Shown here in pieces: positions 18,809 to 57,587 of a DNA stretch of 57,587 nt (positions are counted from its first letter, which is position 1; each line of letters begins with the position of its first letter). Both the position numbers and the translations under genes were made by a program. The DNA comes from Pseudomonadota bacterium. GTDB lineage: Bacteria; Pseudomonadota; Gammaproteobacteria; Steroidobacterales; Steroidobacteraceae. The notes under the pieces are model-generated. The model was not told the DNA's origin, made no database searches, and saw only the letters and a program-made list of their open reading frames with translations. Location of the stretch: assembly GCA_947459825.1 (NCBI GenBank), contig CANHFH010000005.1, positions 1 through 57,587 on the forward strand, read 5' to 3'.

Positions 18809-21187
18809 TCAGAACTTGTAGCCGACCGCCACGCGCCAGGTGCGCGGCTGGTTCTGCTGGGCGTTGAACGAGAGGTTGCCCGGCGAGATGTTGAAATAGC
18901 TCTCGTCGAGCACGTTCTTGCCGCTGAACACGAGACGCCAGCTGTCGCTCTCGACGCCGATCGAGGCGTCGACCAGGCTGACATCGTCCATCTTGTTGTT
19001 GTTGCTCGGGTCCTCGAAACCGCCGAACTCGCCGCGCCAGGCGAGCAGGGTGACGAGATCGAGGTCCTTGCCGACGGGCGTACGCCACGACAGCGAGGTG
19101 GCGGTGGTCCAATCGCGCAGCCGCTGCAGGCTCTTGCCGTCGATCGAGACCGTGGTCAGCGTGGTCGCGGGGTTCGTCTGCTGGTTGGCGTAGACGAAAC
19201 CGCCGTCGTACTCGCCCTTCGCCCAAGCGAAGGCGAGACGCAGCGACAACGACCCCGCGCCGACCTCGAAGCGCTGCGCCAGTTCGCCGTCGACGCCGTA
19301 CTGGAAGGAATCGCCGGCGCTCGCCAACACGCCGACGTTGCGGACGGTGTTGGTCGCGGCTGTGCCGGTGAACACCGCGTAGTTCACGAGGGTGCCCGTC
19401 TTGAGGTTGTAGTAACCGTTGAGCGAGTAGCGCAGGCCGCCGGCGAACCGGCCGCGCAGACCGGCTTCATAGGCCTTCACGAACTCCTCACCGTAGGACA
19501 GCGGCACGGCGATGTTGCTGACGCCGTCGCCCGGCTCGCCGATGTCGTTGTTGAAGCCGCCGGCGCGGAAACCCGTGCCGATGCGGCCGAACAGGTACTG
19601 CCGGTCGGCGTACTGCCAGGTGACCGAGGCGCTCGGCGTCCAGCGGTCGAAGGTCTCGGACGCGAGGATGTTGCGCGTCAGCTGCTCGTTGACCGTGGCG
19701 GTGGCGGGGTTGTCGAGACGGAAGACGTTAGACAGCCTGAAGTTCTTGTCGTCCTTGTTGTAGCGGGTGTCGACGCTCAGCTGCAGACGATCGCTCGGTC
19801 GCCAGTTGACGGCCGCATAGCCGGCGTATGACTTGTCGTCGACGCCGGAGTTCTCGACCCGGTAGCCGTTCCGGGCCGTGGTCTGCACGGTCGCGAGCGT
19901 GCAGGTCGGTGCGACCGTACAGTCGGCGGGCAGCGTCGTCGGGACATCGGTGATGCCGTCGAAGATCTCGTTGCGGTTCGCATCGGCGTAACGGTCGGTG
20001 CGGAAGGTGGAGTCGACCTTGTTGTATTCCGCGCCGACCAGCCAGTCGACGGCACCGCCGGTGCCCGACAGCAGGCGCAGGTCCTGCGTGAACCGCTCGA
20101 ACTGCTCGGAGCCCTGCGCGACCGTCGGGATGAGACGCGCGACCTTGTTCGTGCCGAAGGCGTCGACGTCGGTGTTGGAGCGTGCGCCGCGTTCCCGCTG
20201 ACCGGTGGTGGACTGCAGCGTGAAGTCGCCGAACTTCAAGCTCATCTCGAGCAGCCGCGTGTCGGTGGCGCGATCGAAGTAGCTGTCGGTGTCCACGGGC
20301 TTCGTGAACCGCGGCACCGAGAAGCCGGAGGGTGCGCCCGTCGGATTGTTCGGCGGGTCGTCGGTCGCCAGCACCTGGCCGAAGGCGACCACATTGGGGC
20401 CGAACTCGTCTGCACGTTCGATGAGCAGGTTCGCGTCGAAGGCATCAGAGGGCTGCCAGCCGAGCTGCAGGCGGTAACCGGAGGCGTTCTCCCGGTCGAG
20501 CGTCTTGCCCGTGATCGAGCTTTTGTAGAAGCCGCGCTGCTGGTTGGACTTCAGGCCGCCGAGGCGCAGGTTCAGGCTCTCGGCGAGCGGTACGTTGAGC
20601 ACGATCTCGCCGGCCGAAGACTGGTTTGTGCCGTACTCGACATCGACCGATCCCTCGTACTTGTCGGTCGGGCGCTGCGAGACGATGTTGACGGCGCCGC
20701 CGAGGGCGTTGCGGCCGAAGAACGAGCCCTGCGGACCGCGCAGCACCGTCACGGAGCCGGCGTCGAAGAAATCGATGGGGATGAAGTTGCGCCCGCCGGC
20801 GTTGCCGCCCGGGATGAACATGCCGTTGCGGTAGAGGCCCGAGCCGGTCTCGGCGTTGTTCTGGCGCGCCGCGCCCTCGCCGCGGATCAGGAACTCGTCG
20901 TTGAAGCCCGAACCGTTGTCGATCACGGTGAGCGCCGGGGTGATGCGCGTCAGGTCCTTGCCGGAGCCGACATTCAACTCCCGCAGGTAGGACTCGTCGA
21001 AGTAGGAGATGGAGAGCGGGACGTCCTCGAGGCGCTCGGAGCGCTTGCGCGCCGTGACGACGACCTCTTCGAGCGTCGCGTCTGCGGCGGCGCCCGTCGC
21101 CTGCGCGCGGGTCGGCGCGGCGACCGAGAGGCCGGCGATCGTGGCGACGCCGGCGGCGAGGAGCGAGGTGGAAAGTCTGACGGTCAT
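18809..21187 (-). CDS. TonB-dependent receptor
   Basis: The 792-residue outer-membrane receptor begins with a signal peptide ending near APTRAQA, then a plug domain from EEVVVTARKRSERLEDVPLS, with VTVLRGPQGSFFGRNALGG in the plug. A 22-strand barrel follows and ends in the aromatic VAVGYKF, a normal beta-signal. No SusD gene is adjacent. It is the first gene of the leftward seven-gene operon and has a good promoter facing the divergent TetR gene. The receptor type (VVTARKR, ETGS plug) is typical for uptake of hydrophobic or aromatic compounds rather than siderophores, but that is only a tendency of the family. Confidence 0.94.
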   Translation of the reverse strand: MTVRLSTSLLAAGVATIAGLSVAAPTRAQATGAAADATLEEVVVTARKRSERLEDVPLSISYFDESYLRELNVGSGKDLTRITPALTVIDNGSGFNDEFLIRGEGAARQNNAETGSGLYRNGMFIPGGNAGGRNFIPIDFFDAGSVTVLRGPQGSFFGRNALGGAVNIVSQRPTDKYEGSVDVEYGTNQSSAGEIVLNVPLAESLNLRLGGLKSNQQRGFYKSSITGKTLDRENASGYRLQLGWQPSDAFDANLLIERADEFGPNVVAFGQVLATDDPPNNPTGAPSGFSVPRFTKPVDTDSYFDRATDTRLLEMSLKFGDFTLQSTTGQRERGARSNTDVDAFGTNKVARLIPTVAQGSEQFERFTQDLRLLSGTGGAVDWLVGAEYNKVDSTFRTDRYADANRNEIFDGITDVPTTLPADCTVAPTCTLATVQTTARNGYRVENSGVDDKSYAGYAAVNWRPSDRLQLSVDTRYNKDDKNFRLSNVFRLDNPATATVNEQLTRNILASETFDRWTPSASVTWQYADRQYLFGRIGTGFRAGGFNNDIGEPGDGVSNIAVPLSYGEEFVKAYEAGLRGRFAGGLRYSLNGYYNLKTGTLVNYAVFTGTAATNTVRNVGVLASAGDSFQYGVDGELAQRFEVGAGSLSLRLAFAWAKGEYDGGFVYANQQTNPATTLTTVSIDGKSLQRLRDWTTATSLSWRTPVGKDLDLVTLLAWRGEFGGFEDPSNNNKMDDVSLVDASIGVESDSWRLVFSGKNVLDESYFNISPGNLSFNAQQNQPRTWRVAVGYKF

Positions 21188-54951: not shown

Positions 54952-55605
54952 ATGTCAGGCGTTCTGCGCGGCGGGGTGATCGGTGCGGTGGTCGCGGCGG
55001 TGGCGATCGCGCTCGGCATCGGCTGGGTGGCGCAGCGTATCGACGGCGACAAGCGCGAGGTCCGCAGCACGCTCGTCTCACCCGAGAAGCCCGTCGTCAT
55101 GCGCACCAAGGGCGGCCTGCTGGAGGTCGCGACGGTGCGCGCGCTGGAACGCTTCACCCGCGAGGACTCGCGCGACTTCTGGGGCATCGACCTCGGCACC
55201 ACGGTGTCGCAGATCCAGGCGCCGGTGACCTACCGGTTCCACGTCGAGATGGCCCGTGAATGGCCGATCGAGATCCGCGGCCGCACGGCCATCGCACGCG
55301 CGCCGGCCATCAAGCCCTCGTTACCGGTGGCCTTCGACACCACGCTCATGGAGAAGTACACCCGTGCGGGCTGGGCGCGCTTCAACAAGGAAGAGAACCT
55401 CGAGGCCTTGGAGCGCTCGATGACCCCGATGCTCGCGGAGCGGGCGGCCGGTGAGGCCTACCGCGGGCTCGCCGAGGACGCCGCACGCAAGACCATCGCC
55501 GAGTTCATCACTATCTGGTTGCTCAAGGAGACGGACTGGAAGCGCGACCCTCTGCACAAGGTGGTGGTGCTGTTCCCGGGCGAAAAGCCGCCGCCGCTGC
55601 CATAA
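54952..55605 (+). CDS. membrane-anchored protein of unknown function (possibly DUF4230-like)
   Basis: I do not recognise this protein firmly. The 217 residues begin with one membrane segment (about 7-27, GVIGAVVAAVAIALGIGWV), followed by a soluble domain with TKGGLLEVATVRALERFTRE and a helical C-terminal half (AERAAGEAYRGLAEDAARKT). The order resembles DUF4230 proteins, but this is a weak call. It lies between the acyl-CoA dehydrogenase and ppa, and is followed by a perfect hairpin. Confidence 0.65.
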   Translation: MSGVLRGGVIGAVVAAVAIALGIGWVAQRIDGDKREVRSTLVSPEKPVVMRTKGGLLEVATVRALERFTREDSRDFWGIDLGTTVSQIQAPVTYRFHVEMAREWPIEIRGRTAIARAPAIKPSLPVAFDTTLMEKYTRAGWARFNKEENLEALERSMTPMLAERAAGEAYRGLAEDAARKTIAEFITIWLLKETDWKRDPLHKVVVLFPGEKPPPLP

Positions 55606-55626
55606 TCGCCGGCGGGGGTATCAACC

Positions 55627-55646
55627 GCCGGGCGTCGTCGCCCGGC
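55627..55646 (+). other. perfect 8-bp hairpin before ppa
   Basis: GCCGGGCG pairs fully with CGCCCGGC around loop TCGT. It lies 22 bases after the previous stop and 25 bases before the ppa start. No T-run follows, so it may be a leader structure or a weak terminator. Confidence 0.5.
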
Positions 55647-55671
55647 CCGGAAGCCAGCAAAGGAGTTGCGC

Positions 55672-56220
55672 ATGGCCCTCGACCTCGTGCCCACCGGCAG
55701 GGACGTCCCGAACGACGTCAACGTCATCATCGAGATCCCGAAGGACGCCGAACCCGTCAAGTACGAGGTGGACAAGGCGACCGGCGCGATCTTCGTCGAC
55801 CGCATCCTCTCGACGCCGATGCGTTACCCGTGCAACTACGGCTACATCCCGCACACGCTGTGCGGCGACGGCGACCCCGCCGATGTGCTCGTGATCCTGC
55901 CGCTGCCGCTGGTGCCGGGGTCGGTGATCCGCTGCCGGCCGGTGGGCGTGATGATGATGCAGGACGAGGCCGGGTCCGATGAGAAGATCCTCGCCGTGCC
56001 GGTCGACAAGATCTTCAACGGCTACAGCCATGTGCAGGACATCGGCCAGGTGTCGAAGCATTGGCTGGAGCGCATCGGGCACTTCTTCCAGCACTACAAG
56101 GACCTTGAGCCCGGCAAGTGGGTCAAGATCAGCGGCTGGGGCGATGCGGCGGCGGCGCGGACCATCATCGAGGAGGCGGTGGCGCGATTCAACGCGTCGC
56201 CGGACAAGCCGCACTTCTGA
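55672..56220 (+). CDS. ppa: inorganic pyrophosphatase
   Basis: The 182-residue soluble enzyme hydrolyses pyrophosphate. It has IIEIPKDAEPVKYEV, MRYPCNYGYIPHTLCGDGDP with the D-x-D-P-x-D metal motif (DGDPADVL), and DEKILAVPVDKI. An AGGAG box (55661-55665) is 6 bases before ATG 55672, so the TTG at 55666 is not favoured. The length is right for family I (E. coli 176). The gene is convergent with the tRNA-Asn transcript and its repeats. Confidence 0.96.
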   Translation: MALDLVPTGRDVPNDVNVIIEIPKDAEPVKYEVDKATGAIFVDRILSTPMRYPCNYGYIPHTLCGDGDPADVLVILPLPLVPGSVIRCRPVGVMMMQDEAGSDEKILAVPVDKIFNGYSHVQDIGQVSKHWLERIGHFFQHYKDLEPGKWVKISGWGDAAAARTIIEEAVARFNASPDKPHF

Positions 56221-56224
56221 GTAA

Positions 56225-56459
56225 GTAGGACGGCCAGCGAAGACGCTGGAGGTAATGGCTCCCCGGGTTGGACTCGAACCAACGACCTTGGAGTAGGACG
56301 GCCAGCGAAGACGCTGGAGGTAATGGCTCCCCGGGTTGGACTCGAACCAACGACCTTGGAGTACGACGGCCAGCGAAGGCGCGAGAGGTAGTGGCTCCCC
56401 GGGTTGGACTCGAACCAACGACCTTGGAGTAGGACGGCCAGCGAAGACGCTGGAGGTAA
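56225..56459 (-). repeat. tandem 68-bp repeats holding tRNA-Asn 3' tails
   Basis: Units start at 56225, 56293, 56361 and 56429, exactly 68 bases apart; the last runs into the intact tRNA gene. The first three each carry a 33-base copy of the tRNA 3' end (56256-56288, 56324-56356, 56392-56424): the T arm, the acceptor 3' strand and the CCA. The 31 bases between them hold a hairpin with stem CCAGCG/CGCTGG, degenerate in unit 3. Read on the - strand the tails lie downstream of tRNA-Asn. Confidence 0.9.
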
Positions 56460-56535
56460 TGGCTCCCCGGGTTGGACTCGAACCAACGACCTGCGGATTA
56501 ACAGTCCGACGCTCTACCGACTGAGCTACCGGGGA
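56460..56535 (-). tRNA. tRNA-Asn (anticodon GTT)
   Basis: The 76-base gene folds as a standard cloverleaf on the - strand. The acceptor pair is TCCCCGG/CCGGGGA with G as discriminator and an encoded CCA. The D arm is AGCTCAGTCGGTAGAGC, the anticodon loop is CTGTTAATC with anticodon GTT, and the T loop is TTCGAGT. Its 3' portion is copied three more times downstream. Confidence 0.97.
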
Positions 56536-56563
56536 ACAGGAGGCCTTGTCGAAAAGGCCGCGC

Positions 56564-56592
56564 ATTGTCGGGAAACCCCGCAGTCGCGTCAA
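56564..56592 (-). promoter_or_regulatory. promoter of tRNA-Asn
   Basis: Read leftward, -35 TTGACG (56587-56592) and -10 GACAAT (56564-56569) are 17 bases apart. A GC-rich discriminator (GCGCGGCC) follows, as is usual for stringently controlled stable-RNA promoters. A leader hairpin GGCCTT/AAGGCC lies at 56542-56559. Confidence 0.75.
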
Positions 56593-56655
56593 GCCGCCGG
56601 ACCCCCATCGGGCGTTCCTCGGCAGGGGTCCGCGGGGCTATAGTGGCAGGCTGCC

Positions 56656-57587
56656 ATGGACGCCTTCCGCTTAGTCTCCGAATACGCCCCCGCGGGCGAC
56701 CAGCCGAAGGCCATCGCGGCGCTCGTCGATGGGCTGCGCACGGGGCTCGCGCACCAGACCCTGCTCGGGGTGACAGGCAGCGGCAAGACCTTCACCGTCG
56801 CCAACATCATCGCCGAGGTGCAGCGGCCGACGCTGGTCCTGGCGCACAACAAGACGCTCGCCGCCCAGCTCTACGGCGAGTTCCGCGAGTTCTTCCCCAA
56901 TAACGCGGTCGAGTACTTCGTGTCGTACTACGACTACTACCAGCCCGAGGCCTATGTGCCCTCGAGCGACACCTACATCGAAAAGGACGCCTCGATCAAC
57001 GAGCACATCGAGCAGATGCGGCTCTCGGCGACCAAGGCGCTGCTCGAGCGCCGCGACGCGATCATCGTCGCGACGGTGTCCTCGATCTACGGCCTCGGCG
57101 ACCCGGAGGCCTACCTCGCGATGGTGCTGCACCTGGTGCGCGGCGAGATCCTCGACCAGCGCAAGCTGCTGCGCCGGCTCGCCGACATGCAGTACACGCG
57201 CAACGAGATCGACTTCTCGCAGGGCGCGTTCCGCGTGCGCGGCGATGTGGTCGACATCTTCCCGGCGGAGTCGCAGCGCGAGGCGCTGCGCGTGGAGCTC
57301 TTCGACGAGACCATCGAATCGCTGGCCCTGTTCGACCCGCTGACCGGTGAGGTGCTGCGCAAGCTGCCGCGCTACACGGTGTACCCGGGCACGCACTTCG
57401 TCACGCCCAAGGACCGGATCACGGGCGCCATCGACCAGATCCGCGACGAACTGCGCGGCCGGCTCGCCGAACTGCGCGCCGCCGACAAGCTGGTCGAGGC
57501 GCAGCGGCTCGAGCAGCGCACCATGTTCGACATGGAGATGATGAAGGAGGTCGGCTACTGCGCCGGCATCGAGAACTACTCGCGCTA
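56656..57587 (+). CDS. uvrB: excinuclease ABC subunit B, N-terminal part
   Basis: The first 310 codons of the nucleotide-excision repair helicase-like subunit are present; the gene continues past the window. The Walker A loop [14 protein letters not shown] is near residues 37-50. [20 protein letters not shown], then [16 protein letters not shown] (the beta-hairpin that inserts in DNA) and DIFPAESQ follow. The start [20 protein letters not shown] matches the family. Confidence 0.97.

Follow-up and report, generated by a model that had tools for sequence, protein, structure and literature searches.

Arrays of locally matched tRNA tails and similarity-linked spacers behind four tRNA genes in one bacterial family

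An array of tRNA-Asn tails downstream of the tRNA-Asn gene

The window, by which we mean the whole stretch of 57,587 nucleotides analysed here, is one contig of a Steroidobacteraceae genome (G000). On its reverse strand lies a complete tRNA-Asn(GTT) gene with an encoded CCA (56460..56535). Upstream of this gene and on the same strand, TTGACG and GACAAT are found 17 nt apart (56564..56592), a match to the sigma-70-type consensus at 9 of 12 positions. This match makes a putative promoter of the tRNA-Asn gene plausible, but the strength ascribed to it in the preliminary description of the locus goes beyond what a consensus match demonstrates. In the direction of transcription the gene is followed by three copies of its own 3' tail, each running from tRNA nucleotide 44/45 to the CCA (56392..56424, 56324..56356 and 56256..56288, all on the reverse strand). 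The copies are separated from the gene and from each other by three 35-nt spacers on that strand (spacer 1, 56425..56459; spacer 2, 56357..56391; spacer 3, 56289..56323). A terminal spacer that retains 32 of the 35 nt and has no tail behind it (56224..56255, reverse strand) closes the array and adjoins the stop codon of a convergent ORF on the forward strand (55666..56220), which we take from its sequence to encode an inorganic pyrophosphatase (ppa).

The three 33-nt tails are identical and spaced exactly 68 nt apart, as had been described, and the expectation of identical 33-mer pairs arising by chance in the window is ~2e-11. TRF reported a single 68-bp array at 56224-56492 with 4.0 copies, 95% matches and a score of 503. 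The repeats had been called exact, which is true of the tails and not of the spacers: spacers 1 and 3 are identical, and spacer 2 differs from them at 5 of 35 sites. The spacers had also been given as 31 bases long, a length that has to be corrected to 35 nt with the addition of the fourth, terminal spacer of 32 nt. Spacers 1, 3 and 4 have the hairpin CCAGCG-TCTT-CGCTGG in intact form, and in spacer 2 it carries one mismatch. Spacer model R1 matched spacer 1, with which it had itself been built, and the terminal spacer (E 4.1e-5). No intrinsic terminator was predicted on either strand between 56000 and 56800. The window comes from an assembly of 200 contigs (97.3% complete), so the copy number of the array could be an assembly estimate.

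A second array in the same genome

The genome of the window gave 32 tRNA matches, of which 30 had loci that could be inspected; at six of these loci the sequence available downstream was shorter than 500 nt (31 to 253 nt). Tail copies were present behind two of the 30, tRNA-Asn and tRNA-Arg(CCT). The latter precedes a sucA-like ORF on contig 17 and is followed by two units with 35-nt spacers; its tails copy tRNA-Arg, and its spacers resemble those of the Asn array. Taking both arrays together, 8 of 70 spacer sites vary and none of the 66 tail sites does (Fisher p 0.006), suggesting that the tails are homogenised or constrained there. A search of the genome with one Asn unit recovered the Asn and Arg-CCT arrays, two matches to tRNA-Phe tails and one match of 15 nt. 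Contigs 21 and 49 (L013 and L014) both stop at a tRNA-Phe gene of identical sequence, so that the assembly is broken or overlaps at this point.

Spacer-tail units in related genomes

Tail scans, which require the T-loop GGTTCRANTCC and miss other T-loops, matched 15 of the 217 genomes of the bacterial family. Twelve of these carry spacer-tail units of the kind seen in the window, one (G434) has a partial tRNA-Pro duplication and two (G288 and G239) have no tail copies. The preliminary description had allowed for the repeats being absent from all relatives; relatives do carry them. Order-wide, 10 of 396 genomes matched and nine were true, the sole match outside the family (G327) having no tail copy. 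At the level of the phylum 2 of 398 matched, and only the genome of the window was true (G637 has no tail copy). Patterns built on the spacer borders found four of the 24 genomes of the genus of the window (G000, G014, G021 and G023) and missed G013 and G019; in the order they found 11 of 396, the same four being genuine and the other seven having no match in the tail scan. A pattern demanding two consecutive units found only G000 and G112 among the 217 genomes, missing the two units of G265. Behind tRNA-Pro(TGG) of G434 the last ~51 nt of the gene plus a 9-nt trailer are repeated (L278, 1449-1620), which is a plain tandem duplication.

Units occur at four loci. Within the genus, 19 genomes were inspected at tRNA-Arg(CCT), of which five have units there (G000, G013, G014, G019 and G023), and 18 at tRNA-Asn, of which two do (G000 and G021). 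The copy in G013 sits in a contig (L042, contig 140) that is palindromic around the tRNA-Arg tail and probably misassembled. In the sister genus (58 genomes), the Arg-TCT tail is present in 35 genomes, 30 of which were inspected (one of them, G368, with just 20 nt downstream); three carry units (G112, G191 and G348), while in G410 a spacer is present but no tail follows it. The sister genus also has units behind an intron-bearing tRNA-Ile(CAT) in G265, G340 and G413. In L275, L276 and L277 (1200-1600) a group I intron (Rfam RF00028, 57-65 bits) interrupts this gene, whose anticodon was read by hand from the split sequence, ARAGORN having found no gene. Copy numbers among the relatives may be wrong, their genomes being mostly fragmented.

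Tails copy the local tRNA and spacers are related between loci

At tRNA-Asn, tRNA-Arg(CCT) and tRNA-Arg(TCT) the tails start at G45, the G of GGTCG, or at nucleotide 44 where that also matches, and the Ile tails, read by eye, have the same left boundary. The tail is always a copy of the tRNA that it follows. In the genus of the window, all 10 tails in seven counted Asn and Arg-CCT arrays match the local tRNA perfectly over 32 nt. The right boundary is mostly the exact 3' end of the tRNA, the exceptions being the last tails of G191 (ending CCG) and G112 (decayed); the Ile gene seems to have no CCA encoded directly after nucleotide 73.

Across the family the tails measure 32-33 nt and the spacers 31-35 nt. 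The spacers of the different loci share an ACC near the start and a CTTCG/CTCCG core, with GGTCG following directly, in a form that is shortened at Ile. Candidate inverted ends CGACC...GGTCG are present in G019, G191, G410 and G112, and a shorter ACC...GGT in most of the others. Eight pairs of spacers, partly chosen as the best-looking, were compared with dinucleotide-shuffled spacers (5000 shuffles). No shuffle reached the observed score for the Asn and Arg-CCT spacers of G000 (z 9.0), for the G021 Asn and G000 Arg-CCT spacers (z 10.2), for the G019 Arg-CCT and G191 Arg-TCT spacers or for the G348 Arg-TCT and G265 Ile-CAT spacers. One of 5000 did so for G112 against G265 and 15 of 5000 for G000 Asn against G014 Arg-CCT. 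Two pairs were not significant, G000 Asn against G191 Arg-TCT (247/5000) and G021 Asn against G265 Ile (4553/5000). Homology of the spacers at all four loci is proposed by links, through a chain of sequence similarities that joins Asn to Arg-CCT, Arg-CCT to Arg-TCT and Arg-TCT to Ile.

A dispersed element of the REP or MITE type would be expected between genes, and no such dispersed copies were found in the search of the genome with the Asn unit or in 113 sources searched with model R1. Those sources were mostly regions around tRNA genes, and matches at E < 0.01 fell solely behind tRNA ends; one further match, at E 0.24, lies in the window at 19261-19281. Derivation of the spacer from the tRNA itself was also rejected, as 13 spacers compared on both strands with two tRNAs gave p values of 0.028-0.044 in 3 of 52 comparisons, about the number expected by chance. 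Finally, the trailers at the empty Arg-CCT sites of G001, G007, G012 and G015 start with NNACCTC; we did not count them as spacer remnants because model R1 gave them no score at E up to 1.

CRISPR arrays have repeats and spacers of similar length, and one could imagine the tRNA tail serving as a repeat with the spacers of 31-35 nt acquired by Cas1-Cas2. However, Cas1 (PF01867) was found in none of the 12 genomes of the genus that were tested, among them all six with units, and in one of four tested in the sister genus (G112), some of the tested assemblies being incomplete. The missing Cas1, together with spacers that resemble each other rather than being unrelated, makes such adaptation hardly credible.

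Occupied sites, empty sites and array ends

The Asn locus of G021 carries one unit and the orthologous locus of G020 is empty, giving a clean 68-bp presence/absence difference between downstream flanks that are 91% identical over 300 nt. In a sucA tree of 15 tips, from which G013 is absent, each of four species with an occupied Arg-CCT site has an empty close relative. Repeated gain and loss are inseparable in this pattern because direct repeats of 32 nt make clean loss easy.

The ends of 12 arrays were compared, leaving out that of G340, which is cut by a contig end. In five of them at least 5 nt of the spacer start recur after the last tail (32, 13, 10, 6 and 5 nt), which is a signature of tandem duplication. 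In the other seven, the DNA after the last tail shares just 0-2 leading nucleotides with the spacer, and in G021 it is the DNA of the empty site. The Arg-TCT locus of G410 has a hairpin spacer that ends in GGGTCGC and lacks a tail, as would a seed before duplication of the tail. It could also be a deletion product, since the DNA behind the tRNA at empty Arg-TCT sites often starts with GTCGC or GCCGC itself.

We favour, as an evenly poised proposition, a model where tail plus spacer are duplicated in tandem across GGTCG, with later growth and loss, to give a family of repeats of tRNA 3' ends. A spacer of 31-35 nt would sit directly behind the tRNA 3' end, with a GGTCG right after it that repeats nucleotides 45-49 of the tRNA. 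Misaligned replication or recombination at the two GGTCG motifs would then duplicate the segment from G45 to the end of the tRNA plus the spacer, yielding tRNA-[spacer-tail]n-spacer. Recombination between the 32-nt tails could make the arrays grow, shrink, drop the terminal spacer or vanish, while gene conversion or constraint would keep the tails equal to the tRNA. The units would probably be transcribed as part of the 3' trailer of the tRNA. The architecture, the similarity that links spacers at four tRNA loci, the local match of the tails and the empty sites are observed; duplication across GGTCG, gene conversion and transcription are inferred. The model is preferred because it accounts jointly for both boundaries of the tails, the fixed left one and the right one at the tRNA end, and for their local origin. 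The preliminary description had suggested amplification by slippage; this suits the growth of the array in the window, where the terminal spacer is present, and does not account for homologous spacers behind different tRNA genes. Indeed, the arrival of the spacer at four tRNA genes falls outside the GGTCG model as well and may have involved ectopic gene conversion or true mobility. In the seven arrays that lack a spacer start after the last tail, among them G021 with its DNA of the empty site, the arrangement resembles insertion of a unit and not tandem duplication, and the duplication model would have to invoke an additional recombination event involving an empty allele.

Such observations could also be read, though we think this rather doubtful, as the work of a minimal mobile element: the spacer would insert exactly behind the tRNA 3' end and duplicate a 32-bp target (G45 to A76), by analogy with a transposon that makes a long target-site duplication. 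This idea fits the finding, in two genera, of related spacers behind four different tRNA genes, with a local tail every time, and likewise the empty site of G020 beside the occupied G021, the seven arrays without a spacer start behind the last tail and the confinement of model R1 matches at E < 0.01 in 113 sources to tRNA ends. Against it, the spacer start does follow the last tail in five of the 12 arrays, 17 spacers have no pairing in common, no copy was found away from a tRNA and no autonomous partner was noticed, short of a profile search. It seems improbable that a hairpin-prone mobile element of ~35 bp, directed to exact tRNA 3' ends, has spread to four or more tRNA species of one family, copying 32 nt of the host tRNA at each insertion. 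If it had, the copied 32 nt would leave the host tRNA gene intact and open to renewed targeting.

Duplicated tRNA 3' ends are also a hallmark of integrative elements, and the tails could be scars or decoys of elements whose attachment sites are tRNA 3' ends. tRNA-Arg(CCT) does have the look of an attachment site that has been used. Its 3' end is present, in the absence of a tRNA gene, on five virus-type contigs (L286-L289 and L291), likely as attachment sites, and in G009 a 48-nt copy of the Arg-CCT 3' end (96% identical to the query) lies ~2.7 kb beyond the gene. Between the gene and that copy is an ORF that we presume to be nitrilase-like (L238 and L241, contig 21). The virus copies, however, reach back through the anticodon arm in all five contigs (in L286 with mismatches), whereas the array tails begin at G45. 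A spacer core followed by a tail was found in none of the virus contigs, using a pattern that fits some spacers (G019) and not those of the window. This longer extent of attachment-type copies, known here from virus contigs at Arg-CCT, weakens the attachment-site explanation, which we regard as very unlikely. Integrative elements normally carry kilobases of cargo and an integrase.

A possible role of the units as RNA

Selection of the units as RNA, either as a small RNA like rttR or as a decoy that presents T arm and CCA from the tRNA transcript, was weighed against the duplication model and appears unlikely. The constancy of the tails beside diverging spacers speaks for such selection. In the sister genus the Arg-TCT spacer and the start of the tail form a long predicted hairpin: spacer plus the first 6 nt of the tail folded at z -3.1 to -4.8 in all four cases, and six sequences gave a 12-pair consensus in which 2 pairs are changed on both sides. 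A consensus of nine sequences from the genus of the window combines the T arm with a pseudo-acceptor stem (15 pairs, 2 of them changed on both sides). Folding is nevertheless mixed elsewhere, the same test giving z -4.0 to +1.1 for nine spacers of the genus of the window and z -1.4 and -0.6 for two Ile spacers, and a consensus over 17 spacers contained 0 pairs. Pseudo-acceptor pairing between spacer and tail found no support, being on average no better than in shuffled sequences (mean z -0.3; one of 12 at 0.018). Among the loci of the genus that were inspected, units are also absent from 14 of 19 at Arg-CCT and from 16 of 18 at Asn, and the terminal tail of G112 (L089) has decayed. The decoy put forward in the preliminary description is unsupported, given the lack of a shared structure, the ordinary pairing and the decayed tail, and a decoy or regulatory RNA made from the units is possible but unsupported.

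Comparison with known tail repeats

Tail repeats of this general kind have for decades been familiar from an operon of E. coli, and we know of no general account of them. As in E. coli tyrTV/rttR, the arrays described here place the tRNA's own 3' tails, ending in CCA, downstream in the same orientation and in alternation with a repeated spacer. The parallel drawn in the preliminary description holds for this architecture: behind tyrV, E. coli K-12 has three exact tRNA-Tyr tails of 19 nt that recur every 178 bp, with one more between tyrT and tyrV. The dimensions differ, since tyrTV combines a 19-nt tail with a spacer of ~159 nt at tRNA-Tyr, whereas the family of the window has tails of 32-33 nt and spacers of 31-35 nt at Asn, Arg-CCT, Arg-TCT and Ile. 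An RNA is released from the tyrTV repeats and is related to the stringent response. The ncRNA annotated at these repeats in the K-12 record is rttR. No match to the Rfam family RtT, presumably one of the 4227 families scanned, was obtained in 55000-57587 (cmscan, E up to 1), where only tRNA, Plastid-ycf2 and Ms_AS-1 were reported. PMC12306157 places rttR among REP-containing sRNAs. Integrative elements likewise duplicate tRNA 3' ends, but the Arg-CCT cases show a longer block of identity that extends into the anticodon arm.

A GTDB-wide tail scan gave at least 118 stretches. Outside the family, among the matches listed, at least 39 arrays have tails that reach 22 matching positions of 25, some of these arrays containing runs of N or being plain partial gene duplications (L118, L150, L162 and L164). 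In 13 of the 39 listed arrays, the spacer start is matched at 10 or more of 20 positions after the last tail. These further cases indicate that tail repeats are scattered and recurrent as a kind. Those listed at tRNA-Ser-GGA in Herbiconiux, Agromyces and Subtercola and at tRNA-Phe in Clostridia repeat the tRNA's own tail once or twice at a spacing of 50-72 bp, but differ from the arrays described here in having a tail copy of ~25-29 nt and spacers that look unrelated by eye. The tRNA-Ser-GGA repeats (L111, Herbiconiux; L119, Agromyces; L134, Subtercola; also L187, L208 and L217) have spacer ends that look alike by eye, around GCGC(A/G)CA. The tRNA-Phe copies (L136, L140 and L173 in Clostridia, and L205) begin at GGTTC, so that the 5' strand of the copied T stem differs from that of the tRNA.

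A search of the open-licence literature, which is weak evidence, found no publication on arrays of the type in the window or on the tail repeats of other bacteria. As far as we found, what sets the present family apart is a single family of spacers behind four tRNA species, each with the tail of its own tRNA. With related spacers, local tails and natural alleles of both states, occupied and empty, this family makes it testable whether such arrays arise by slippage, gene conversion or insertion, and tRNA 3' ends are seen to gather repeats that look unlike the scars left by integrases.
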